In this document: positions 6,040 through 44,245 of the stretch, in pieces
Layout: the number at the start of each line of letters is the position of its first letter
Position numbering within the stretch: position 1 is the stretch's first letter
Source: a bacterium
GTDB lineage: Bacteria; CG2-30-53-67
Direction: 5' to 3'
Assembly: GCA_919901565.1 (NCBI GenBank)
Contig: CAKKPE010000035.1
Coordinates: 78,317-123,231, forward strand
Length of the DNA: 44,915 bases
The notes under the pieces: model-generated
Databases searched by the model: none
The model's input: only the letters and a program-made list of their open reading frames with translations
Told to the model about the DNA's origin: nothing
Translations under genes and position numbers: made by a program

Positions 6040-6069
6040 CGGGAGGGGACATCCTATAGTCCCCCTATC

Positions 6070-6198
6070 CCCGTCTTGGGTGAAGAGCAGGGCAGCCGTC
6101 AGATCCAAGCCGTAGCAATTTTCAATAAGGACTGGCAATACTTTAATTCGCTTACCGGAAATCGATTGATTCATCGCGATATCAACCTCCTGCCTCAC
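6070..6198 (-). pseudogene. Possible TIR-domain gene remnant
   Basis: A short frame beginning RQEVDIAMNQSISGKR and continuing IKVLPVLIENC resembles the internal strand of bacterial TIR-domain proteins, where a run like E-x-x-AM-x-x-x-I, then KVLPVLI-x-x-C precedes the last helices. The frame is closed by a stop upstream and becomes unrecognisable downstream. If real, it is a fragment of about 40 residues from a signalling or defence protein. The match is short, so confidence is low. Confidence 0.3.
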
Positions 6199-6225
6199 TC
6201 AACCCGATAGAAACTCACTCAAGAT

Positions 6226-6429
6226 TCACACCGCAACCAGGACAAGGGGCTCAACCTCTGCGATGGATTGAAAATCTCTGTCCTTTGCGAGCAATGCAAC
6301 CCCGTTTTCCAGGGCCACAACGGCAATCATACAGTCAATCGTGCTTCTTAGAGCATGAAGTAGTTTTCTATGAGAAGAACGGCTTCCTCCCAGAAAATCA
6401 ATCCAGACACTTGTGTCCACAAGAATCAT
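6226..6429 (-). pseudogene. VapC-type PIN toxin with internal deletion
   Basis: The 67-residue product begins MILVDTSVWIDFLGGS, the usual start of a VapC ribonuclease with the first catalytic aspartate. It then jumps after KLLHAL directly to RSTIDCMIAVVALENG and LLAKDRDF, which belong to the last third of the family. VapC proteins are about 130 residues, so about 65 central residues, including the second acidic residue, are gone in frame. The deletion should inactivate the nuclease. The start overlaps the stop of the antitoxin gene by 4 nt (ATGA), typical of vapBC operons. Confidence 0.75.
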
Positions 6430-21938: not shown

Positions 21939-22913
21939 TCATATTTCATCCCAGAAGTGCCAGCAATATGGATATTTTTTTACATAACTTTCTGCAACAG
22001 ATATAAATTTTTCAGTTAAATATACCACATCCTTCTCAATGTCATTATGAATCCCCTCAACCGGTTCTTCAAATACTATTCTAAATTGGTCATATCTTTC
22101 AGTGATTATAAATGTGGGGATAAAAGCAGCATTTGTTCTTAAAGCCCATATTGCGGGCCCCATAGGAAACATTCTTCTTATTCCCAGAAATTCAAGCTGT
22201 CTTTGTTCTCCGAGTGCTATGCCTCTGCCTGCCCCATCCCCGGTAGTAAAAACAACGCCGCCGTTTTTAAGATGCCTGTATGCCCTGCCCAGGTATTTAT
22301 TTGCCGGCAGTATCGGCGGCAACAACGCCTCGTATTTTTGTCTGTTTTTATATGCAACTGTACGGCCTATCCTGCTAAGCCCTCTATCCGTTGGATAACC
22401 GATCTGAATAGGGTTATAACCGTACAGGGCCATTGCAAGCAGTGTAATCTGGACAGGCCCAAAATGCGGCTGAACCAGAAGTATGCCTCTCCCTTTTTTG
22501 AGTTCCCTGTCTACCAAATCAATATTTTCTATATGTACATACCTTGCAATTTTTTCTTTTGATGTCAGTTTCGGGTAATAACATATATGAAGCCGGTCAA
22601 TATAATGATTCTCATAGGTTTTTTTTGTGATTTCAAGAGCGGCCTTTTGCCCTGTTCCCAGAACGGCTTCTAAGTTGGAGGACGTTCTTTTCTTCTTTCC
22701 GCTGCTTGCGTAGAAATGCAAATCCCCCATCATCTTAAACATTAAAAATCCCCATTTAACAGGAATAATACTTAAAAGCCACCTGAATGGATACCAGACC
22801 AATAACCTTAATATGTCACGTATTATATTTTCATTTGTCTGCATTGTATTGTTAGGTAGTACACGATTGTTGTCGGGAAATTCAACGGATTTTAGCCTTA
22901 AGGAAATTATCAA
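21939..22913 (-). CDS. LpxL/HtrB-like acyltransferase family protein (atypical active site), copy 1
   Basis: About 324 residues, matching the lipid A lauroyl acyltransferase family (PF03279). An N-terminal hydrophobic anchor (LRLLVWYPFRWLLSII) is followed by RGILLVQPHFGPVQ and KNGGVVFTTGDGAGRG. The catalytic H-x4-D/E is here H150-F-G-P-V-Q155, so the acidic residue is replaced by glutamine. The later acceptor/donor segment MGPAIWALRTNAAFIPTF is present. It may be an altered acyltransferase or a non-catalytic relative. It overlaps the flippase stop by 4 nt. The start is uncertain: the TTG at 22913 has AGGAA too close, and an ATG at 22844 is an alternative. Confidence 0.75.
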   Translation of the reverse strand: MIISLRLKSVEFPDNNRVLPNNTMQTNENIIRDILRLLVWYPFRWLLSIIPVKWGFLMFKMMGDLHFYASSGKKKRTSSNLEAVLGTGQKAALEITKKTYENHYIDRLHICYYPKLTSKEKIARYVHIENIDLVDRELKKGRGILLVQPHFGPVQITLLAMALYGYNPIQIGYPTDRGLSRIGRTVAYKNRQKYEALLPPILPANKYLGRAYRHLKNGGVVFTTGDGAGRGIALGEQRQLEFLGIRRMFPMGPAIWALRTNAAFIPTFIITERYDQFRIVFEEPVEGIHNDIEKDVVYLTEKFISVAESYVKKYPYCWHFWDEI

Positions 22914-30554: not shown

Positions 30555-31619
30555 CTATGTATGATGTACCATTTCTATCACATTTTTCCAGCGCATAGCA
30601 GCTTCCTTTACATCATACATCTTGATTACCTTCTCTCTCCCGTTTCTGCCAAATTGATTCCTCAAATCCGCAGAGGCCTCCAGTTTTAATATTGCGTCTC
30701 TAAATCCCGCTTCATCATTTTTTGCAACAAGAAATCCATTTTCCCCGTCATCAACTATTTCACTTGGGCCGGCACAGTCGGATGAAATCACCGGTATTTG
30801 GCAGGACATCGCTTCGATCAAAACAATACCAAAGTTTTCATGAAATGACGGAAGGATTACAATGTCTGAGTTCTGATAAATCGATACCAACTCCTTTTTA
30901 TCCCTGATAAAGCCGAGATATCTGACAGGATAGTTTTCATTCTGCAGTCTCACGATCTCTTTTTCGTAGGGCCCGCCGCCGGCAACCAAAAACTCTATGT
31001 TTTGCCAGCTGTATTTTTTAATTAAATTTACAAGCAGCGGCATTCCCTTTATTCTCAAAAATTTCCCCACATAGAGCACTCTAACTTTATCCGAAGGAGT
31101 TTTATGAGAAGCAGGCACAAACAAATCCGTGTCAACAGAGTGCGGCATGTAAAAGGACTTGGCGCCGTACTTTGCTACGCCTTCGCATGAAGCCTTTGTC
31201 ACCCCGGCAGATATGGTCCCGTTTAGAAATTCACGCCATGCCGTCATCTGAGAAGCAAAATAAATTTTTTCGAGGTATTTTTTACCATCCCAATACGGCC
31301 AGGAGGTGTAATAAATACATTTATGTTTTAACTTCAATTTATTGAGCAGAAATACCACGATGCTGAAAGGTGCCGCTCCTATGATGAGGGTTTTGTTTTC
31401 AGAGAATAGGAGTTTGATGATTTCATAAATGTTTGTAAATATTTTGAGAAAAAGCCGTTTGTCCTCAAAGCCGTGAAGAATGATCGAAACCTGCTTGAAT
31501 AATGAAAATTCGATAAACTTTATTTCAACGGTTCCATCTTTTATCAAAAGGCTTAGCGCTTCGCTGTAACTTGAATTCTCAATTCTAAGCGGCTGCAAGC
31601 TTATGATTTCATACTGCAT
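30555..31619 (-). CDS. Family 4 glycosyltransferase
   Basis: A 354-residue GT-B enzyme: VRVLYVGKFLRIKGMPLLV, EFLVAGGGPYEKEIVRLQ and PSFHENFGIVLIEAMSCQIP (E-x7-E donor motif), then SDCAGPSEIVDDGENGFLV. The N-terminal acceptor domain is less conserved. Its ATG overlaps the stop of the acyltransferase-like gene (TAATG), so the two are coupled. It probably adds one sugar of the EPS repeat. Confidence 0.88.
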   Translation of the reverse strand: MQYEIISLQPLRIENSSYSEALSLLIKDGTVEIKFIEFSLFKQVSIILHGFEDKRLFLKIFTNIYEIIKLLFSENKTLIIGAAPFSIVVFLLNKLKLKHKCIYYTSWPYWDGKKYLEKIYFASQMTAWREFLNGTISAGVTKASCEGVAKYGAKSFYMPHSVDTDLFVPASHKTPSDKVRVLYVGKFLRIKGMPLLVNLIKKYSWQNIEFLVAGGGPYEKEIVRLQNENYPVRYLGFIRDKKELVSIYQNSDIVILPSFHENFGIVLIEAMSCQIPVISSDCAGPSEIVDDGENGFLVAKNDEAGFRDAILKLEASADLRNQFGRNGREKVIKMYDVKEAAMRWKNVIEMVHHT

Positions 31620-32590
31620 TAGATATTTTTCCTCTCTTGAGCCCTGTTCACATTTTGAAAAAGATTCGTTTCCAGCGCGCCTTCTTGAATTAATTCCTCA
31701 ACACGCATTAATGTCATTGCATAATGGCATGGGTATTGTTTAATGTATCTCTCAAATGTCTTGGCGAATTTGGCTATATTCAACGCAAGGGTTCCCTCCT
31801 CATCTTTCGCCAACTCAAATTCAAAGGGCGGCTCAATGATGAGCCTGTGCCTGTCATCTCTTTGTCTGATTATGAATGTAGGCAATATGGGAGCCTTTGT
31901 CTTAAGAGACAATTTAAACGGCCCCGGCGCAAAGAAAGCCTTATGGCCGAAAATATCCGCCTGGAACCAACGATTCCCTTCTCCTCCGTCAAATGCTATA
32001 AAAAGTATCTCGTTCTTTCTTAATGTATTGAATACAGATCTCATATAATTCCCGACTAAAATGAAATTAATCGGCAGTTTCTCTGACTCTCTTAGCCTGA
32101 CTTTAAATATCTTTCGATGCATTGGACTCTGTTTATCTATCAGTGGTACGCCTGCAAGCTGATGGATCTTGTATCCCTTGAAGCCTAACGCAAGGGGAGG
32201 AAGCATGTGAGACCCGAAGTGAGCAGTAAGGAGGATTGCGCCGTTGTTCTTTTTCAGGGCATTATCAAGATTTTCAATTCCTTCTATCGAAACCATCCGG
32301 TCTAACAATTCCGTAGAACTTTTACCCATATAAATATTCTCCACCTGTCTTTTGCTGAATATCTGTAACCCTTCATATGTCATTTTCTTAATCGTTTTCT
32401 GGTCCAACGATGAGGTCTTGCTGAATAGAAAGGCAAGTTCCCTGCTCATGAGGTATCTCTTCCTTTTTGAGAATACATATAGCACAATTCCGATTAACTT
32501 CCCGGTGAAATTGACCAGCTTCAAAGGCAAGCGCTGAATCAATAACCGGAGTGGAAACCAGACAATCCAGAGAACGATATCCGAAAACAA
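31619..32590 (-). CDS. LpxL/HtrB-like acyltransferase family protein (atypical active site), copy 2
   Basis: A 323-residue relative of the protein at 21939-22913. It starts at a TTG (32590) with AAGGA at a suitable distance, then a hydrophobic anchor (FSDIVLWIVWFPLRLLI). The active-site segment is GAILLTAHFGSHMLPPLAL, so H124-x4 is followed by Met129 rather than Asp/Glu. FIAFDGGEGNRW and PFKLSLKTKAPILPTFII are the expected later blocks. It may have lost acyltransferase activity or may use another residue. It directly follows the SGNH gene of the Dlt-like cassette. Confidence 0.78.
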   Translation of the reverse strand: MFSDIVLWIVWFPLRLLIQRLPLKLVNFTGKLIGIVLYVFSKRKRYLMSRELAFLFSKTSSLDQKTIKKMTYEGLQIFSKRQVENIYMGKSSTELLDRMVSIEGIENLDNALKKNNGAILLTAHFGSHMLPPLALGFKGYKIHQLAGVPLIDKQSPMHRKIFKVRLRESEKLPINFILVGNYMRSVFNTLRKNEILFIAFDGGEGNRWFQADIFGHKAFFAPGPFKLSLKTKAPILPTFIIRQRDDRHRLIIEPPFEFELAKDEEGTLALNIAKFAKTFERYIKQYPCHYAMTLMRVEELIQEGALETNLFQNVNRAQERKNI

Positions 32591-32639: not shown

Positions 32640-33644
32640 TTATTTCGTCATTGCAGACAGTTTAGATGAAATAAGTTTTGAGAATTTAACGGCTCCTTTA
32701 TAGTTTAAATGGTCCTGATTCAGAAAAATCGTGTGATCAGCAGCATAGGCATCTTCCAGAAAATCCAAATGCTTATCTATATGTTTTTTGAATCTTGGAT
32801 TTTCCAATACCCTTTCATAGAGCTGGTCTTTGGTTACATATTTCTTCGAATATTTCAGATAGTAGTCTGTCTCCGGAAGACTCAGAGTTATAACCTTAAT
32901 GTTCTTGTCTTTGCACATTTTCAATATTTTTTCGAAATAGAGCAGGAAGATATCGTCAAAACTATTTTGGCCATCGAACTGTCGTTTCACTCTTCTCAAA
33001 GCGTTTCCCTCTCTGATATCACTTCCTGTTTCCTTTACATATCCATTATGGATTTCTGTCTTATCAATAGGCTGATTCATGAGTAGGCTCTTTACATTCC
33101 TGAAGAAATTAATCATCTGAATTCTTTTAATGACAGGACAATAGCTCAACAGCTTTTCTCTAAACACCATCATCCCTTTTATTTTATATAATTCCATAAT
33201 CTCCGGGTATGTTATGTACCCATATGAAAAATATTCCCATTGTATTTCGTCTGCCCTAAACGATGAAAAAGTTGGCAAGGTTACTGACAATATAACTATT
33301 TTCAGTTCGGGCATATCATTGATATAGTGTTTCAATTTATAATAGGTTTCTATAAAACTTTCTCCGGCACCTGCAAAATTAAACGTTCTATCATTAAATT
33401 CATCCGGGACAATGCCAAACTGTATATCTGACTGACCGAGGGACAGGATCTGGATTTCGCCTTTTTGCTTTTCAAAATCCTGTACAACCCTTTCAAATAT
33501 GCTTTTAGGTCTGAAAAGCACTCTGTCTGTGATCTCTATAGAGAATATGATTATAAAAAAGATAAGAAATGCCATACATATTCCCTTAAACCAGTTCTGA
33601 TTTGCAACGCCGGAAGACGTCAATGATGACTTAGAATTTTTCAT
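32640..33644 (-). CDS. SGNH-like transferase with N-terminal membrane anchor (DltD-like role)
   Basis: About 334 residues from the ATG at 33644 (MKNSKSSLTS), with GAAGG about 8 nt upstream; this start overlaps the microprotein gene by 14 nt. Residues 20-38 form one membrane helix, and the rest should lie outside the cytoplasm. The SGNH block I is ILSLGQSDIQFG with probable nucleophile Ser72. Block V is FLNQDHLNYKGA with His312. Proteins of this kind accept an acyl group and move it to a polymer, as DltD does for teichoic acids and AlgJ/AlgX-type proteins do for alginate. It follows MBOAT, carrier and microprotein genes, which strongly supports such a role. Overall similarity to DltD itself is low. 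Confidence 0.72.
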   Translation of the reverse strand: MKNSKSSLTSSGVANQNWFKGICMAFLIFFIIIFSIEITDRVLFRPKSIFERVVQDFEKQKGEIQILSLGQSDIQFGIVPDEFNDRTFNFAGAGESFIETYYKLKHYINDMPELKIVILSVTLPTFSSFRADEIQWEYFSYGYITYPEIMELYKIKGMMVFREKLLSYCPVIKRIQMINFFRNVKSLLMNQPIDKTEIHNGYVKETGSDIREGNALRRVKRQFDGQNSFDDIFLLYFEKILKMCKDKNIKVITLSLPETDYYLKYSKKYVTKDQLYERVLENPRFKKHIDKHLDFLEDAYAADHTIFLNQDHLNYKGAVKFSKLISSKLSAMTK

Positions 33645-33753
33645 ATACGAAGCCTTCAAGTTTGTAGCCTGAAAGGTACAAAACATAAACCACCAGAATA
33701 ACGATAAGAATAAGAGTTACTGTTAATGCTAATGATTTTTTCCCCTTGTTCAT
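33631..33753 (-). CDS. 40-residue membrane microprotein ending in FVYEKF (DltX-like acyl shuttle candidate)
   Basis: A small gene with a strong Shine-Dalgarno (AAAAGGAG, 6-7 nt before the ATG at 33753). The protein is a short basic start (MNKGKK), one membrane helix (about residues 8-28, LALTVTLILIVILVVYVLY), and an outside tail SGYKLEGFVYEKF ending at the stop. The last six residues fit F-x-Y-x-x-F exactly. In the Dlt pathway the DltX microprotein has this layout, and its C-terminal hexapeptide tyrosine carries the acyl group from the MBOAT to DltD. Here the tyrosine is Tyr37. The gene sits between the carrier protein and the SGNH protein and overlaps the latter by 14 nt. Function is inferred from layout and neighbours. 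Confidence 0.72.
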   Translation of the reverse strand: MNKGKKSLALTVTLILIVILVVYVLYLSGYKLEGFVYEKF

Positions 33754-33809
33754 AATATTCTCCTTTTTAAACTTTTCCAGCCTATCTTTCCTGTTGTTTA
33801 AAAACAGTG

Positions 33810-34046
33810 CTATTTATGCATTTTGCTTTCTATGGTTTTCATCATATCATTGATCGTGCTAAATTTATCCATAGTAACTTCGCTCATATCAATAGAAACC
33901 TTTAACTTCTCTTCAATAAATGCAAGCAGTTTAATAAAACCAAGCGAATCTATGATCCCTGATTCAAATAACTGCTCATCATCCGCAATGGTTCCCTGAT
34001 CATACATAAAGTTACTGACTATAAATTTCTTCAGCAGTTCTTTCAT
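33810..34046 (-). CDS. Acyl carrier protein (DltC-like role)
   Basis: A 78-residue, acidic carrier protein. AAGGAG precedes the ATG. The phosphopantetheine site is ESGIIDSLGFIKLL with Ser34, and the flanking helices match the ACP/PCP fold. It would carry an acyl or aminoacyl thioester made by an adenylating enzyme; candidates are the ligases at 39989-41491 and 15341-16783. It lies 12 nt after the MBOAT stop and 56 nt before the microprotein start, in the position expected for the intracellular donor of a Dlt-like system. Confidence 0.88.
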   Translation of the reverse strand: MKELLKKFIVSNFMYDQGTIADDEQLFESGIIDSLGFIKLLAFIEEKLKVSIDMSEVTMDKFSTINDMMKTIESKMHK

Positions 34047-34058
34047 TCATTATCTCCT

Positions 34059-35246
34059 TTATATTATCTGATATACAATAGCCTTCACGGTGCTCATGTC
34101 AAAAGCAAACAAGATATATCCAAAGCTTACAAAGGTAAATGTAATGAATGTAGAAAATGGAACTGCGTAAGGGTTGTCGACCAGTTTTCGTATTTTAGCA
34201 TGTTTCTTTTTTATTTCCTGGAAAAACTGCCATATAAGCAGACCGGAACCATGATATACCCCCAAGAGAAGAAAAGGCAGGCTGCCCTCGTGCCATAGCA
34301 TAAAAATTACCATGGTTGAAAATATGCCGATGTAAATTTTTGCCTGAGATGCCCGGTAGCCAAAAAAAGGGAAAAAAAAGTAATCCCTTATAAAGCTGTA
34401 GACAGACATATGCCAGTTTCTCCAGAAGAGCGCTATATTTTTCTTGAGATAGGGATTATTAAAATTCTCCACAATCTTGTATCCGAACAATCTAGACACG
34501 CCAAGGGCCATGTCTGTATATCCAGAAAAATCCATATAAATCTGGATCGCCAGACCGTAAACTGAAAGTGTGACCAGCAGAGGCGAAACGTCTTGCGGAG
34601 AAAGAAGCAAGGGCATTATATATTTTTTAATTGAGTCAGCAACAACAAACTTTTTTATCATTCCGGAGATCATGCGGAACAACCCGTAATTGAAATCAGA
34701 AGAATCAAAAGATTTACATCCCGCAGTCTGAGGCTGAACCTTCTGAAACCTGTCGACCGGCCCGGCCAGGAATGTCGGAAAGAAAAACGTATATAACGCC
34801 AAATCCCAGAACGTATGTTCCGGCAAGGTTTTCCTGTAGATCTCCACTATATAATGAATCAGCCTGAAAATAACATAAGACATCCCCAATGGCATGATAA
34901 TCTTTGAGAATGTAGTTTCGTTCATGAATGGAAGGCTTATTCCAAGCCTGGATAAAGCATCGAGCATAAAATTAATATATTTGAAAATACATAGATTCCC
35001 GATGAGCCAGAATAAAGAAAGCTGTAAAAAAAGTTTTCTGTTTTTTTCGTCCCTGCTGACATAGCTCCCTGCAATATAAATCAATAAAGAATTAAAAAAA
35101 AGATATACCGCATACTTCGGACTAAGAAAACACATAAAAACAAGGCTCGCTCCAACTAAAAATATACTGCGCTTTCTCCACGGGAGAAGCCAGTAGATCA
35201 AAACACTCACAGACATAAAAATTAAAAAATATAATACCTGCTGCAC
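34059..35246 (-). CDS. MBOAT family O-acyltransferase (DltB-like role)
   Basis: A 395-residue polytopic protein starting at GTG 35246 with AAGGAAC in front. Family blocks are MPLGMSYVIFRLIHYIVEIY, FFFPTFLAGPVDRF, YMDFSGYTDMALGVSRLFG, NFNNPYLKKNIALFWRNWH and MLWHEGS, with catalytic His319. It has about 10-11 helices. MBOATs such as DltB and AlgI take an acyl group from a cytoplasmic thioester and present it outside. The protein is shorter than AlgI (about 500 residues) and close to DltB (about 400), and its C-terminus (MSTVKAIVYQII) lacks a fused F-x-Y-x-x-F tail, which agrees with a separate microprotein. Confidence 0.9.
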   Translation of the reverse strand: MQQVLYFLIFMSVSVLIYWLLPWRKRSIFLVGASLVFMCFLSPKYAVYLFFNSLLIYIAGSYVSRDEKNRKLFLQLSLFWLIGNLCIFKYINFMLDALSRLGISLPFMNETTFSKIIMPLGMSYVIFRLIHYIVEIYRKTLPEHTFWDLALYTFFFPTFLAGPVDRFQKVQPQTAGCKSFDSSDFNYGLFRMISGMIKKFVVADSIKKYIMPLLLSPQDVSPLLVTLSVYGLAIQIYMDFSGYTDMALGVSRLFGYKIVENFNNPYLKKNIALFWRNWHMSVYSFIRDYFFFPFFGYRASQAKIYIGIFSTMVIFMLWHEGSLPFLLLGVYHGSGLLIWQFFQEIKKKHAKIRKLVDNPYAVPFSTFITFTFVSFGYILFAFDMSTVKAIVYQII

Positions 35247-35325: not shown

Positions 35326-36681
35326 CTAATGTCTCCTCAATACAAATTTGGCAAACGGTTTCAAGACCTTATCAATGAATTTAATCAAATATATTATAAA
35401 ATAATCCAGACACCGATAAGAAGATTTAGTGTAAAAAAGCTTTTTTAATTCTTTTACATCTTCCGGCAATAAATCAGTATCCTTACGCAACAACCCGTTC
35501 TCAACGGCGATTTTGTGTATTTCAGTGTAAGGTTCTATGCGTATCCAACTGAGGAAGACCCCGCCTCGACCAGAGAGATAGATAGGGATCTTAAAATAAA
35601 GATACAGAGTTTTTATCACATTACCAAATCCTGCCTGAGGGATGAAAAAGAAACTATAGCCTGCCTTTACACCATCTATTTTCTTCATCATTCTCAGATT
35701 TTTCTGTATATCCTGCTCCGTAATACCTTTTCTCAAGAAGGAAAGCGCCTTATCGGTTGCACCGTCAGGCGAGAAACCAAAATGTTTACAGCCTGCCTTC
35801 CTGGCAAGAAGCACAAGGTCTTCAGTGGTGTGTTTTATCTCAAACCAGGCACTCCATTCAACATCCAATTTTCTTCTGATAATTTCTTCGCAAATCTCCT
35901 TCGCATGCGAAGGAGGGATATTAAAGATATTGTCTACAAAAGTAAACTTTTTGATTCCCAAACTGATCAGATATTCTATTTCATCAACAACGGACTCGGA
36001 CGAACGGAGACGTAATTTCTTGCCGCTTAGAAAAGGATAACCGCAGTAGGTACAATCAAGCATGCATCCACGCTTGCTTTGAATCCCGATAAAGTTGTCC
36101 ATTGGCCCGTTATATTGCTGAATATCTACAATCTCTTTGTCCCTTTTCGGAACAGGCAATTTGCTGAAATCGGGAAGTTCTCTGGGGCCGGTAAAATGAA
36201 CTGAATTGTTCTTGCGTATATAAATTCCTTTAACCATTCCTGGTGAATCTATATGATCTAACAATTCCGGTGTGGATTCCTCTCCCTCTAAATAAATCCC
36301 GAAATCAAATTCCGGAATTCTTTCCATGATTTTTTGAGCAAATATGGAGAAGCCTGCACCACCGACCAGAAGTTTAATGTTCGGATTGATTTCTTTGATC
36401 AGATGCGCTGTTGGCTTAATGGTTTTAAAATGATAAAAAATATCCGGCCTGTAAGTAGAATCGATGTTGCGAATAGAAATTCCGACAACATCAGGATGAA
36501 AATTCATGATTTCTGTTTTCAGCTGATCATAGGCGGAAGACAGCTCCCACATATTCAGATCAACTATTTTTACATGGTGTTTCTCTCTTAAGGCATTGGC
36601 TATATAACACAAGCCTATCGGAAACAACGGGTGGGAAAACGTTATTCTTCCCAAATGTGATTGTAGTAATAAGACTTTCAT
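35326..36681 (-). CDS. B12-binding-domain radical SAM protein
   Basis: A 451-residue protein with AGGA 8 nt before the ATG. The N-terminus is B12-binding-like (MKVLLLQSHLGRITFSHP, VVGISIRNIDST, LLVGGAGFSIFA). The radical SAM core has SKRGCMLDCTYCGYPFLSG (C-x3-C-x2-C) and KKFTFVDNIFNIPP. It resembles the protein at 18030-19490 in layout but not closely in sequence. It lies between the MBOAT and the Wzc-like gene. A methylation or rearrangement of an EPS sugar or lipid is plausible, but no substrate can be assigned. Confidence 0.85.
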   Translation of the reverse strand: MKVLLLQSHLGRITFSHPLFPIGLCYIANALREKHHVKIVDLNMWELSSAYDQLKTEIMNFHPDVVGISIRNIDSTYRPDIFYHFKTIKPTAHLIKEINPNIKLLVGGAGFSIFAQKIMERIPEFDFGIYLEGEESTPELLDHIDSPGMVKGIYIRKNNSVHFTGPRELPDFSKLPVPKRDKEIVDIQQYNGPMDNFIGIQSKRGCMLDCTYCGYPFLSGKKLRLRSSESVVDEIEYLISLGIKKFTFVDNIFNIPPSHAKEICEEIIRRKLDVEWSAWFEIKHTTEDLVLLARKAGCKHFGFSPDGATDKALSFLRKGITEQDIQKNLRMMKKIDGVKAGYSFFFIPQAGFGNVIKTLYLYFKIPIYLSGRGGVFLSWIRIEPYTEIHKIAVENGLLRKDTDLLPEDVKELKKLFYTKSSYRCLDYFIIYLIKFIDKVLKPFAKFVLRRH

Positions 36682-38831: not shown

Positions 38832-39992
38832 TTATACTTTCAGCAGAATCTTTCCGCCTGTCCTCTTTGTAGAAGCAACGATGGCATCCAAAATCTTCTC
38901 GAATGGGTATTTTGCTGTAATCATTTTTTCCGGATTCAATTTCCCTGAAGCAATTAATTTAATGATATTCGGAAATATTTCATAACCTGAATGGCCCCTC
39001 GCGCCTATAATCTTATTAGCGCCGGAGACGAGGGCATCCAGATACACAGGCGTAGTTGTAGCTGCTCTACCCAGATAGATGATCTTGCTGTTTGCTGACA
39101 TGGACTTCTCCATTTCGGGTATTGTCAAAGGCGCAGCCCCCGCAGCCTCTATTTGAATCTCGGCGCCCCGCCCGTTTGTAATTTCCATGACTTTCTCACT
39201 CGGTTTATACCCGTTTAACTTTCCAGCATTAAAAACATAATCAGCTCCCATATCTTCTGCTATCCTTAACCTCTCATCGATCACATCAAATACTATAATC
39301 TGGCTGGCGCCGGCTAACCTGGAGAGGGCAACAGCCCCAAGTCCAATAGAACCTGCGCCATATACGACAACGGTTGCTCCCGGATTAAATCCTCCACCGG
39401 CAATGAAAATACCATTGTAGGCACACCCTATCGGCTCAATAAGAGCTGCTATGTCAAATGTTTTATCTCCCGAAAATACCTTTGCAATACTATTAATCTT
39501 CCAGCAATGCCTTGCATTGACGCTTATATATTCGGCAAAAGCGCCGTCAGCGCTTAAGCCTAATAATTCCACATGTTCACACTGGTTAGGATGCCCGCTC
39601 CTGCAGGGCTGGCACATCCCGCACCACATAATACTCTCTACCGCAACTTGATCGCCAACCTCAAGGGTACTTACCCTGCTGCCGGTTTTTTCAATAACTC
39701 CCGAGAATTCATGTCCCAGAATACACGGCAGTTTGGTTAAGCCGGAAAATATGATATATCCTTCATGATCCGTTTCATATAAATGTGTATCAGAACCGCA
39801 TATGCCACAGGCTTTAACCCTGATCAGCACTTCATCATCTCTGATATCGGGTACAGGCACATCTTTCACTTCAAAATGAGGATGACGCCATACCTGACTG
39901 CCGATCATGGCTCTCCTCTTTACCTTTTCGTCTTCACTCATGCCATAGTTGTTTTTCGGTGACCACTCGGCATCAACAACCAGTGCCCTCAT
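38832..39992 (-). CDS. Zinc-dependent medium-chain alcohol dehydrogenase
   Basis: A 386-residue MDR enzyme. It has the catalytic zinc motif VKACGICGSDTHLYE, GHEFSGVIEKTGSRV, the structural zinc cysteines CGMCQPCRSGHPNQC, and the NAD-binding VVYGAGSIGLGAVALSR. The overall pattern resembles scyllo-inosose or polyol dehydrogenases more than ethanol dehydrogenases, but this is only a resemblance. It overlaps the stop of the adenylating enzyme by 4 nt, so the two should be made together. It may supply an oxidised sugar or polyol for the glycan or for its acyl modification. Confidence 0.85.
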   Translation of the reverse strand: MRALVVDAEWSPKNNYGMSEDEKVKRRAMIGSQVWRHPHFEVKDVPVPDIRDDEVLIRVKACGICGSDTHLYETDHEGYIIFSGLTKLPCILGHEFSGVIEKTGSRVSTLEVGDQVAVESIMWCGMCQPCRSGHPNQCEHVELLGLSADGAFAEYISVNARHCWKINSIAKVFSGDKTFDIAALIEPIGCAYNGIFIAGGGFNPGATVVVYGAGSIGLGAVALSRLAGASQIIVFDVIDERLRIAEDMGADYVFNAGKLNGYKPSEKVMEITNGRGAEIQIEAAGAAPLTIPEMEKSMSANSKIIYLGRAATTTPVYLDALVSGANKIIGARGHSGYEIFPNIIKLIASGKLNPEKMITAKYPFEKILDAIVASTKRTGGKILLKV

Positions 39993-41491
39993 TTCATCTC
40001 CATCTGCAATTGCTTCTTATTGATTTTCCCGCTCCCGATCTTTGGCAGACTTTCTCTGAACTCCACTATTCTCGGCACCTTGTAATGGGGCATTTTCTCT
40101 CTACAGAATTCGATTATTTCCTTCTCTGTTAAATTCCTGCCATTCTTTAAAACAATAATGGCCAAGGGTATTTCTCCCCTTAGTCTGTCCCTTGAAGAGA
40201 CGACTACGGCTTCTTTAACATCCGGGTGCTCAATCAGCACAAGCTCAATCTCCATAGGATAGACCTTAAGACCAGCCACCTTCAGCATGCCTGTTTTCCT
40301 ATCTACAAAATAGAAGTTGCCGTTGCCGTCCGTTCTGCCCAAATCTCCGCTGTAATACCAGCCATCTTTAAAAGATTCCTGGTTATTCATTAAGTCTTCA
40401 TAATAGCTCTGGATGACTGCGGGCCCCTTAAAGATCATCTCCCCGATTCTCCCATTCGGGAGTTCAACACCATTCTCGTCAACAATCTTTATCTCATAAG
40501 ACATGCAGGGTTTTCCTATGGAACCGGGAATGAACGGCTCTCCAGGAACGTTGGCAATGGCGATACCCGTTGTCTCGGTGCTGCCCCATACAGGCAGAAT
40601 GGGTACGCCGACCTTCTGCCTGAAATTGTTGATAAGATCTGCCCTTGTATGCATGCCTCCGCTTTCCGGAATCCTTAAAGAACTAAGGTCATATTCTTTA
40701 TGTTCGAGTAACTCCAGCATGGTCTCATACATTGGAGCTAACCCCATCATACAGGTAACGCCATGAACTGAAATTGCTTCGGCGATTGATTTAGGATATA
40801 TTGTATCCACCAAGACTATTGTCCCTCCTAAATAAAGGGGCCTGGCAAATATCTCATGCGGGTGGGCAAATGGAGCAAACATGCAAAGGTGGACATCATC
40901 GTGTGTCAGTTTAAGAGCATCTACTGAAGCAAGAGTATTCCAATATATATTTGAATGGGTAGTTAGTGCACCCTTGGCATTCCCTGTAGAACCCGATGTA
41001 TAGTTAAGATAAACAATATCATCTTCATTTACCTTAATGAAGAGATTATCGGAACTTCTGCCTTTTAAAACATTATCCCAGGATAAGCTTTCCTCAAAGC
41101 TCCCTTCACCAACAGATATGACAGGAATTTCTGAGCATGAGGGGATAGAACTTCTCGCCAGCGCCAAATATTTTTTATGGACGAAAAGGCAGCGGGGCTT
41201 GATATGTTCCAGAATGACTCTAAGCTTATCATCCATGAACTCATAATTCAAAGGAGCCAATATCCCCTGAGCCTTTGCGACTCCAAGAAAAATAACAATA
41301 AGTTCGGGTATTCTGGGAAGCATAACGCCGACCCTGTCACCTTTCTTAAACCCTATGTCAATCAAGGTATGAGCCAGCCTGTTTGCGGATTCGTTCAGTT
41401 CTCGATAAGTAATCCTGATGCCATGATAGGCTATGGCTGTCTTCTCTGGAAAATTTTTCGCATTTCTTTCAATCATCTCTACAAGAGTCAT
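39989..41491 (-). CDS. AMP-dependent acyl/aminoacyl adenylating enzyme
   Basis: A 500-residue ANL superfamily protein. It starts TLVEMIERNAKNFPEKTAIA, then the P-loop YLNYTSGSTGNAKGALTTH, VWGSTETTG, GWYYSGDLGRTD with DRKTGMLKVAGLKVYPMEIE, and the catalytic lysine in GSGKINKKQ. It forms an acyl-adenylate and transfers the acyl group to CoA or a carrier. As the only such gene upstream of the MBOAT/carrier cassette in the same transcription direction, it is the best candidate to charge the carrier at 33810-34046, in the role of DltA. Substrate choice (D-alanine, other amino acid or fatty acid) cannot be read here. Confidence 0.88.
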   Translation of the reverse strand: MTLVEMIERNAKNFPEKTAIAYHGIRITYRELNESANRLAHTLIDIGFKKGDRVGVMLPRIPELIVIFLGVAKAQGILAPLNYEFMDDKLRVILEHIKPRCLFVHKKYLALARSSIPSCSEIPVISVGEGSFEESLSWDNVLKGRSSDNLFIKVNEDDIVYLNYTSGSTGNAKGALTTHSNIYWNTLASVDALKLTHDDVHLCMFAPFAHPHEIFARPLYLGGTIVLVDTIYPKSIAEAISVHGVTCMMGLAPMYETMLELLEHKEYDLSSLRIPESGGMHTRADLINNFRQKVGVPILPVWGSTETTGIAIANVPGEPFIPGSIGKPCMSYEIKIVDENGVELPNGRIGEMIFKGPAVIQSYYEDLMNNQESFKDGWYYSGDLGRTDGNGNFYFVDRKTGMLKVAGLKVYPMEIELVLIEHPDVKEAVVVSSRDRLRGEIPLAIIVLKNGRNLTEKEIIEFCREKMPHYKVPRIVEFRESLPKIGSGKINKKQLQMEMK

Positions 41492-41537: not shown

Positions 41538-42368
41538 TTATTGGGCAGGAACGGATATGCCACTAGAAGCGCCTCCACTATTTCTCAGTTCTATTGACTG
41601 GCCAATATAATATCCACTTTCAAGCGAAACTATCGGTGAAATGATCGCCGATAAGTGGGTAAAAAATTTGTCCACATTAGAAATAGTGGTTCTTGGTACA
41701 TAAATGATGTCGCCTCTTTGCAGTACAACATTTTGCGATAAATCGCCTTCTCTTAAAGCTTTTTCCAGATTAAGAACGGATAATTTTGGTTTTTTTATAT
41801 CTCCCCTTATAAGTAAAACGTTTTTCTGTTTACCATCCAGAGTAAAACCGCCTGCCTGAGATATCAGATCAAGGGCGGTCAGGGTAGTCTCCATCTGGAA
41901 ATATCCCGGGTTTTTAACCTCACCAAGGACGATAACCTTTTGAGCCTGGAAACTTACAACACCAACCGAAACCTGAGGGTCGATAATGTATTTTAAAAGT
42001 CCTTCCTGAATCTTGTCTCTTAACTGGAAAATGCTCCCCCCGCCAGCCTGGATATCCTTAACCAATGGAAAAGTAATTTTTCCCGATGAGCCGATCTGAA
42101 TGGTCCTATGCAGATCGTCATGACGATAAACCATAATTTCAATCTTGTCTCCAGGGCCAAGGATAAACTCACTGACTCTTGCCTCATTAGCGGATTCTTC
42201 CGATGTTGGAGCAATTATATCTTCTGAACTAATTTTAGGGGATTCTTCCGATGTTGGAGCAACGATATCTTCTGAACTAATTTGTGAAGTATCTTTTGTT
42301 GTTGCGCAACCAAATAAAAAAAAGAGAATAAAAATAGATGCATATAATATATTTCTTTTAAGAAGCAT
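41538..42368 (-). CDS. Wza-like polysaccharide export lipoprotein (OPX family)
   Basis: About 276 residues from the ATG at 42368 (MLLKRNILYAS), which has AAGGAG 7 nt upstream; an extended frame to 42431 lacks this. The signal peptide ends in the lipobox FLFGC, so it is a lipoprotein. Residues about 25-52 are a low-complexity acidic repeat. The export domain follows: FILGPGDKIEIMVYRHDDL, the poly-export segment with KITFPLVKDIQAGG, and an SLBB-like part (KVIVLGEVKNPGYFQM, DGKQKNVLLIRGD). The protein is shorter than E. coli Wza (379) and would form an outer-membrane or periplasmic exit path with the Wzc-like partner. Confidence 0.88.
   Translation of the reverse strand: MLLKRNILYASIFILFFLFGCATTKDTSQISSEDIVAPTSEESPKISSEDIIAPTSEESANEARVSEFILGPGDKIEIMVYRHDDLHRTIQIGSSGKITFPLVKDIQAGGGSIFQLRDKIQEGLLKYIIDPQVSVGVVSFQAQKVIVLGEVKNPGYFQMETTLTALDLISQAGGFTLDGKQKNVLLIRGDIKKPKLSVLNLEKALREGDLSQNVVLQRGDIIYVPRTTISNVDKFFTHLSAIISPIVSLESGYYIGQSIELRNSGGASSGISVPAQ
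42193..42283 (-). repeat. Tandem 48-bp coding repeat in the export lipoprotein
   Basis: Two units start at 42193 and 42241 (48-bp spacing), nearly identical over their shared part. They encode SSEDIVAPTSEESPKI and then SSEDIIAPTSEESANE, just after the lipid anchor. The acidic, flexible repeat probably forms a spacer between membrane and folded domain. Recent duplication is likely, and copy number may vary between strains. Confidence 0.75.
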
Positions 42369-42439
42369 ATTTATTCTCCTTGGTTTTAAGTTTTTGAACA
42401 TGGAATACCCGCCTGATACTAAAACAGACAAAATTCGTT

Positions 42440-44245
42440 TTAATACGCTCCTGATTTTTTGATGACAACTTTTATTGTCTTAAACAATATCGTCAGATCC
42501 AACCATAATGATCGGTTATTTACATAGTACATATCATATTTTATCCATGTATGGAAAGGCACTTCACTTCTACCCTGGATCTGCCATAATCCTGTCAGAC
42601 CGGGCTTTACTTTCAGCCTTGAATCTCTCCAACTTGGGCTGAATTTCATCTCATTCATGATTAATGGCCTGGGACCAACGAGACTCATTTCACCTTTTAA
42701 AACATTATACAATTGAGGAAGTTCATCAAGACTGGTACTTCTAAGCAGCTTGCCAAGCCTGGTGACTCTTGGATCATTGGTGAGTTTGAACATCGGGCCG
42801 TCCATCTCATTCTGAGAAATGAGTTCTTTATGAAGCCTTTCAGCTTCCGTAACCATGGTTCTAAACTTTACCATCCCGAATAATTTGCCGCCGAGACCGC
42901 ATCTTTTCTGGATATAGAATACAGGTCCTTTAGAATCTATCTTTATCGCTATGGCAAGCAGCAGAAAAAACGGCAGCAAAAGAACAGCGCCGCTCAGAGA
43001 GACAACAAGATCCATTAACCGTTTTGCTATCTTGTATATATGATGCTTGATCTTGGGCAATGAGACAGCACCGGATATATCAACTGTACCTTGAATAATA
43101 TGATCTGAAGGAACAAGGTTTGCATCTCTGGCACTGAACCCATTTAATACAATCATGTTTTTAATATAGGAGTTATTCGGGACATGAGATTTCTCTCCGA
43201 TTATGGAATGCTCTACTTTTGCACCGGCTGATAAAAATATACCATCCCACAATATACTCTCACGAATCAGAGTGCCTTCTGATATTTGGCATCCTTTACC
43301 AATGACTGTAGGACCGATGATCTGCGCCCAGTCTCCGATTGTGCAACCATCGCCTATAACAATTGGGCCCAATAAATAGGCATTGGAAGATAATTTCACA
43401 TCTCTTCCTATCCATGTTTTTTCTGCTATTTCTTCCTTGCCGTAGAGGTAAAAGTTGTGGATTTCATTATCCAGGAGGATGTCCCTCTGAATCCTGATAT
43501 AATCGTTTACACTTTCAATGAATTGATAAGAGCCTTTAATTTCATGTGCAACGACATTCAGTGATTCTCTTTGCAATGCAGGAATCAGTTGTTCTTTGAT
43601 ATCCATATAAATATTTTCTTTGATAAACTTAAGAACAGTAGGATTGAAAATATATATACCGCTGGTCCTCCATGGCGATCTTCTATCTATTGAAGAATGG
43701 ATAATATGGAAACTTGTTATTTTATTTTCTGCATCTAATTTTACGCACTCTCGTGCAAGATTATTTCTATTATCTCTATATATCCCTACAGTGGCAGCCG
43801 CCTTCGATTTATAATGAAAGTCAATAGCACTACCTAAATCAACATGTTCTATGAAAACATTCCCATTGATTACTATAAAGGCTTCTTCATTAATAAATTT
43901 TTCAAGATCTTTAATAGTGCCTGCTGGGCCTCGCAATTTGTTTTCTTTGTGGAAAAATATTTTAATGCCCGCAAAATAGAGTTCTTTTAATCTTTTCGGG
44001 ATCTCATAATTCTCGGATACGGCTATGGTTATTTCCTCTATCCCGTTTCTGACTAAAAAACCAAGAATCAATTCAATAATAGGCACATTGACAATTGGAA
44101 GCATCAAAGGGGGATGGTATTGTGTTATGGGCCTTAAATGCGTTCCCTGTCCTCCAGCTAAGACTATAGCTTTCCTGATCTTTGTCTTTCTCAGGAAATA
44201 GCTTGTAAATATATTCTTTTTTTTACTCTGCAGTTTCAATTCCAA
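42440..44245 (-). CDS. Degenerate nucleotidyltransferase/LbH fused to a polyprenyl-phosphate sugar transferase
   Basis: A 601-residue fusion. The start is the TTG at 44245, set by a strong GGAGG 6 nt upstream. Residues 25-250 are a nucleotidyltransferase domain with LAGGQGTHLRPITQ and YHPPLMLPI: the usual GTRLRP arginine is His36, the usual KP lysine is Pro, and N-G-N replaces N-G-D. Residues about 270-380 are left-handed beta-helix hexapeptide repeats (GPIVIGDGCTIGDWAQIIG). Residues 408-601 are a WbaP/WcaJ-type phosphoglycosyl transferase with one helix, VKFRTM, TSLDELPQLYNVLKGEMS and VGPRP. This part starts repeat-unit synthesis on undecaprenyl phosphate. The N-terminal half may now be regulatory. 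It is the first gene of the EPS block. Confidence 0.85.
   Translation of the reverse strand: MELKLQSKKKNIFTSYFLRKTKIRKAIVLAGGQGTHLRPITQYHPPLMLPIVNVPIIELILGFLVRNGIEEITIAVSENYEIPKRLKELYFAGIKIFFHKENKLRGPAGTIKDLEKFINEEAFIVINGNVFIEHVDLGSAIDFHYKSKAAATVGIYRDNRNNLARECVKLDAENKITSFHIIHSSIDRRSPWRTSGIYIFNPTVLKFIKENIYMDIKEQLIPALQRESLNVVAHEIKGSYQFIESVNDYIRIQRDILLDNEIHNFYLYGKEEIAEKTWIGRDVKLSSNAYLLGPIVIGDGCTIGDWAQIIGPTVIGKGCQISEGTLIRESILWDGIFLSAGAKVEHSIIGEKSHVPNNSYIKNMIVLNGFSARDANLVPSDHIIQGTVDISGAVSLPKIKHHIYKIAKRLMDLVVSLSGAVLLLPFFLLLAIAIKIDSKGPVFYIQKRCGLGGKLFGMVKFRTMVTEAERLHKELISQNEMDGPMFKLTNDPRVTRLGKLLRSTSLDELPQLYNVLKGEMSLVGPRPLIMNEMKFSPSWRDSRLKVKPGLTGLWQIQGRSEVPFHTWIKYDMYYVNNRSLWLDLTILFKTIKVVIKKSGAY

Follow-up and report, generated by a model that had tools for sequence, protein, structure and literature searches.

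The window, a 44.9-kb stretch of DNA analysed here as a whole, encodes on its minus strand, in this order, a B12 radical SAM protein, an MBOAT, a carrier protein, a microprotein, an SGNH protein and an LpxL/HtrB-like acyltransferase. The first-pass annotation had placed the open-reading frames from the MBOAT to the SGNH protein in a single direction, and all four are indeed found on the minus strand at the positions below, which are given together with the other features of the locus:

41538-42431, minus strand: Wza-type polysaccharide export protein (PF02563, E=3e-19)
39989-41491, minus strand: AMP-binding acyl ligase (PF00501, E=4e-83), not DltA-like
35326-36681, minus strand: B12-binding radical SAM protein (PF02310, PF04055), directly upstream of the MBOAT
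34059-35246, minus strand: MBOAT, DltB-like, short, 395 aa, with a GTG start (PF03062, E=4e-14)
34054-34059, minus strand: ribosome-binding site AAGGAG of the carrier, from the sequence
33810-34046, minus strand: acyl/aminoacyl carrier protein, 78 aa, with the phosphopantetheine serine in DSL (PF00550, E=7e-9)
33760-33765, minus strand: ribosome-binding site AAGGAG of the microprotein, from the sequence
33631-33753, minus strand: microprotein, 40 aa, with one TM helix and the C-terminus FVYEKF, recognized as an ORF with the motif
33643-33645, minus strand: codon of Tyr37, the proposed acyl acceptor, which overlaps the SGNH start codon (33642-33644) by two bases
32640-33644, minus strand: membrane-anchored SGNH (DltD-like) transferase, 334 aa, assigned by Foldseek matches to DltD
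31619-32590, minus strand: LpxL/HtrB-like acyltransferase, downstream (PF03279, E=1e-27)

The Wza-type protein marks an outer-membrane EPS locus, which also encodes a Wzc-type kinase, a Wzy-type polymerase, a sugar-phosphate transferase and glycosyltransferases. LptD was found in the source genome, which is therefore that of a diderm with LPS-type export, and the earlier description of a Gram-negative-type EPS locus holds on both grounds. At 42440-44245 of the window, a single protein of 601 aa joins a nucleotidyltransferase with hexapeptide repeats to a bacterial sugar transferase. A second LpxL/HtrB-like protein, similar by eye only, lies in the polysaccharide locus at 21939-22913.

The MBOAT contains the conserved His279 and His319, the latter within LWHEG. 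Its PF03062 score is over the cut-off, and its AlphaFold model (pLDDT 85.5) has DltB (8jem/6bug) as the best Foldseek match with a TM of ~0.78. DltB is also its sole PDB match by sequence, and the two proteins are comparable in length. The fold and the catalytic histidine required of a relay are thus present. The score against the DltB equivalog model TIGR04091 (LTA_dltB) is 166 bits, below the cut-off of 375. As had been read from the sequence, the 395-aa protein carries no C-terminal FxYxxF.

The FxYxxF shuttle motif of the relay is found instead at the C-terminus of a separate protein, the microprotein, which consists of a KGKK N-terminus, a single hydrophobic helix and the FVYEKF end with Tyr37. 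A protein of 40 residues is easily missed by gene finders. The brevity of its ORF and the overlap with the beginning of the SGNH gene might suggest a chance frame or an SGNH leader peptide, but such an origin is improbable to the point of being negligible. The window has exactly one small TM ORF ending in [FY]xYxxF, 60 Markov-shuffled windows have none, and 1.73 Mb of other loci hold one, which is the contig-end-cut tail of a fused MBOAT, so that the background is about zero. The strong ribosome-binding site, the adjacency test and the codon-position bias of orthologs, both described below, also argue against it, and a chance ORF was rejected on the background counts and the adjacency test.

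Neither the window microprotein nor nine relatives matched PF12459 (DltX) at E<=10. The same model was over its cut-off in 0 of 386 diverse genomes, the B. subtilis and L. lactis controls matched it, and a 61-genome set centered on an Exiguobacterium gave four matching genomes. The surveyed loci yielded no close ortholog of the window microprotein.

No Pfam family matches the SGNH protein. Its model, of moderate confidence (mean pLDDT 67), gives DltD (3bma, 6pfx, 7dxm) as the best Foldseek matches, followed by other SGNH hydrolases including PatB, which agrees with the anchored SGNH-like protein claimed earlier and points to the DltD-like anchored transferase that is a feature of Dlt systems. 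Gly70, Ser72 and His312 are invariant in an alignment of 13-14 sequences, and Ser72 and His312 provide the catalytic Ser/His pair of a relay partner. The Asp of the SGNH triad, located three residues before the His in nearly all relatives, is Asn309 in the window, where Asp311 adjoins His312. The plasmid rows were left out of the alignments for structure prediction.

The named family nearest to the carrier is of the DltC type, and its scores of 43 bits for NF003464 (cut-off 68) and 34 bits for TIGR01688 (cut-off 52) both fall short. The two AMP ligases of the window match acyl-CoA ligase families best, and DltA is not among their 25 best NCBIfam families. The ligase at 39989-41491 is a candidate for loading the carrier. 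The radical SAM protein encoded upstream of the MBOAT is a possible modifier of the acyl group.

The gene 50 bases downstream of the SGNH gene is LpxL-like, and LpxL-type enzymes use acyl-ACP. In one alternative, the microprotein is a shuttle, the MBOAT draws on acyl-CoA like PatA, and the carrier works for the LpxL-like acyltransferase or for fatty acid synthesis. Two observations favor it: apart from the locus carrier there is no PP-binding match in the draft genome, where the housekeeping AcpP was not found, and a linked carrier is missing at most split MBOAT loci. This alternative is nevertheless considered rather unlikely, because the carrier gene, with its own ribosome-binding site, is located between those of the MBOAT and the microprotein, because its best score is to the DltC type, because carriers recur beside split systems in three other loci (L047, L055 and L270), and because the absence of AcpP may be an assembly gap.

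Among the surveyed split loci, a PP-binding domain is linked to the MBOAT only in the window, in G002 (L047) and in G125 (L055). L047 has a ligase C-terminal domain and a carrier in one ORF beside the SGNH, MBOAT and microprotein genes, and L055 has a complete ligase-carrier fusion in the same setting. No linked PP-binding domain was found at the split MBOATs of G042, G146, G187, G195, G212 and G321. In locus L058 (4032-10712) a carrier is encoded beside an SGNH protein and an MBOAT with a fused motif (LIYGGF), and MaoC-like, B12 radical SAM and FkbH-like proteins are encoded upstream, the radical SAM protein being similar to that of the window and also upstream of the carrier. L058 is perhaps a carrier system with a fused shuttle, for which an unusual acyl group is conceivable. 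With no linked carrier at the majority of split loci, and one beside the fused motif of L058, a carrier does not define the split systems.

If the microprotein is the shuttle, MBOATs devoid of the motif should have a neighboring microprotein and those bearing it should not. This prediction was tested on MBOATs gathered from 386 diverse genomes and by a scan of genome contigs. The number of residues after the WRRWH signature separates the MBOATs into two classes, short (119-131) and long (185-238). A fused C-terminal [FY]xYxxF is present in 116 of 117 complete long MBOATs and is missing from the short ones. All nine complete short MBOATs, which come from eight genomes and do not include that of the window, have an adjacent same-strand TM ORF ending in YxxF, YxxI or YxxL, which encodes a single-helix microprotein of 36-52 aa. 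Near the long MBOATs such ORFs were found in 2 of 117 cases, one DUF5989-like and the other out-of-frame inside another gene, a count that leaves out the C-termini of the fused MBOATs themselves and the tails of neighboring MBOATs (list read by eye). The difference, 9/9 against 2/117, has a Fisher p of 3e-12, and the pattern is one motif per system, detached or fused.

A short MBOAT with the motif nearby in another frame (L082) was excluded because a frameshift is probable, and the distant MBOATs L248-L252, without an SGNH-like neighbor recognized by eye, were not counted as relays. Split MBOAT relays occur in at least 10 of the 108 MBOAT-bearing genomes surveyed, one of them on a fragmentary MBOAT.

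The same data bear on a different role of the microprotein, that of an accessory subunit stabilizing or docking the MBOAT-SGNH complex with a tyrosine that is not acylated. A regulatory role has been discussed for DltX (PMC11035591), which lends this possibility some weight. On the other side, the tyrosine keeps a constant spacing from the C-terminus in the otherwise variable microproteins beside 9/9 short MBOATs, a constancy that is partly selection as these ORFs were found by their ending; the weight of the test lies in every short MBOAT having such an ORF, not in the constancy itself. The same motif is fused in nearly all long MBOATs, and acyl-Tyr was shown for PatA, so that a purely accessory role appears improbable. 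The idea put forward in the first-pass annotation, that the microprotein replaces the motif absent from the MBOAT, is supported by this comparison, and the conservation of the microprotein and its C-terminal tyrosine in related loci does not speak against it, motif microproteins being found beside short MBOATs.

More microproteins are found in two families of genomes, with common tails such as GPQFIYAMF and EEFTYAMF; the tyrosine motif thus recurs in divergent microproteins beside motif-less MBOATs. In orthologous Gram-negative pairs, codon position 2 differs least in 6/6 and position 3 most in 5/6, the most divergent pair (L054/L239) showing no position-3 excess. This bias indicates selection on the protein, and the orthologous microproteins mostly evolve as coding sequence. 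At L208, L240 and L242 the MBOATs are frame-broken in draft assemblies and the microproteins are intact.

Exceptions are L236, L237, L238 and L241, four loci with a short MBOAT and an SGNH protein in which no microprotein was found within a few kb, even among stop-to-stop frames; other split loci are present in the same genomes. The microprotein of L255, near 4374, is on the opposite strand. In view of these loci, one microprotein may possibly serve several MBOATs in trans.

In a maximum-likelihood tree of 64 MBOAT cores, for which the root was not inferred, 40 fused proteins form one clade (99/91). The split MBOATs, DltB included, form a grade outside it, and two fused carrier-linked proteins are placed elsewhere. 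True DltB proteins are a clade of their own, apart from the window MBOAT, although the long branches of the window, L059 and L270 leave the exact placements unsure. Two independent fusion events were not claimed, since a topology with one fused group passes the AU test (p=0.17). Monophyly of the three carrier-linked split MBOATs lacks support but is not clearly rejected by the same test (p=0.075).

A broader scheme can be offered tentatively, as one that may well prove incorrect. Split relays with detached shuttles would be widespread outside Bacillota, some using carriers and others probably acyl-CoA, microproteins might be shared in trans, the fused AlgI/PatA arrangement would be derived, and DUF5989 would extend the principle to carbamoyltransferase systems.

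The gene set of the window is probably best explained as a split Dlt-like transmembrane acyl relay. The carrier would be loaded with an acyl group, probably by the AMP-forming ligase of the locus, and the group, bound to the carrier or, less likely, to CoA, would reach the cytoplasmic side of the MBOAT. By analogy with DltB/DltX and PatA, His319 would pass it to Tyr37 in the periplasmic FVYEKF, and the tail of the microprotein would then swing to Ser72 of the DltD-like, membrane-anchored SGNH protein. This enzyme would acylate the exported polysaccharide of the Wzx/Wzy-type locus as its presumed acceptor. The microprotein would stand in for the helix and hexapeptide fused at the C-terminus of most bacterial MBOATs. 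It thus probably carries the acyl group on its last tyrosine from the membrane enzyme to the outside enzyme that decorates the secreted polysaccharide.

Formation of acyl-Tyr has been demonstrated in the fused motif of PatA, and DltX is described as the separate shuttle of Dlt (PMC12148441). The Discussion of the same 2025 paper describes the non-Dlt MBOAT/SGNH pathways as having neither a carrier protein nor a DltX-like microprotein. Having both a carrier and a microprotein, the window contradicts this description, and the survey suggests that it is not an isolated case. No report of free microproteins beyond Dlt was found among the open-access papers searched, and an earlier mention elsewhere is possible. 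A detached acyl carrier was thought to be confined to the Gram-positive Dlt system, and the present data suggest that many bacteria outside Dlt have related versions. Current family models cannot capture microproteins of such small size and diversity, so that these systems would read as incomplete or inactive. The finding bears on the acylation of exopolysaccharides by bacteria, and a separate shuttle peptide permits direct in-trans tests of acyl-group and partner specificity.

A single-helix protein with a similar end is known as DUF5989 (PF19451). It is ~50 aa long, is present in 120 of the 386 genomes and has the C-terminus PF[IV]YxxF in 30/30 loci (L271-L300), none of which contains an MBOAT. 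In the source genome it is encoded (L301, G000:C47, ~6066-6227) after a NodU-type carbamoyltransferase and SxtJ. DUF5989 is like the window microprotein in its single helix and PFIYTLF-type end, but differs in its partners, which are the carbamoyltransferase and SxtJ in the loci checked, and is possibly a detached shuttle for another group.

The Dlt system of Bacillota (DltX and DltA-D) resembles the window in its short motif-less MBOAT, free single-helix FxYxxF microprotein, carrier protein and anchored SGNH protein with the DltD fold. The locus could accordingly be read as an orthodox D-alanylation system, having in principle the same five functions, the DltB and DltD folds and a carrier nearest to the DltC type. 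However, there is no DltA-like ligase among the best matches in the locus, the MBOAT and the carrier score far below the DltB and DltC cut-offs, the microprotein is not detected by the Pfam DltX model, the window MBOAT is not grouped with DltB in the tree, and the locus is one of outer-membrane polysaccharide export. This reading is therefore very unlikely, and it was rejected on the model cut-offs, the ligase type and the tree. The Dlt-type system inferred in the first-pass annotation is Dlt-like in mechanism without being a Dlt member; it is not filed as Dlt because the DltX, DltB, DltC and DltA tests were negative.

PatA/PatB, which act on peptidoglycan, and related pairs are similar to the window in being Gram-negative MBOAT-SGNH relays with a C-terminal hexapeptide, but their MBOAT is longer and bears the hexapeptide as a fused part, and neither a carrier nor a microprotein is reported (PMC12148441). 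A further set is located on plasmids of Enterobacter cloacae (NZ_CP071862.1, L270) and Klebsiella electrica (NZ_CP041250.1). In the Enterobacter plasmid, DltD, a 40-aa TM ORF, a short MBOAT, a DltA-like ligase and a carrier are encoded together, and the 40-aa ORF (2572-2694), annotated as a hypothetical protein, ends in FEYQKF. Like the window, the plasmid set is Gram-negative and comprises an SGNH protein, microprotein, MBOAT, ligase and carrier. Unlike the window it is not an EPS locus, and its ligase is DltA-like, so that its substrate is probably D-alanine. The FEYQKF ORF of the plasmid set indicates that there are other microprotein-containing Dlt-type sets in Gram-negative bacteria.
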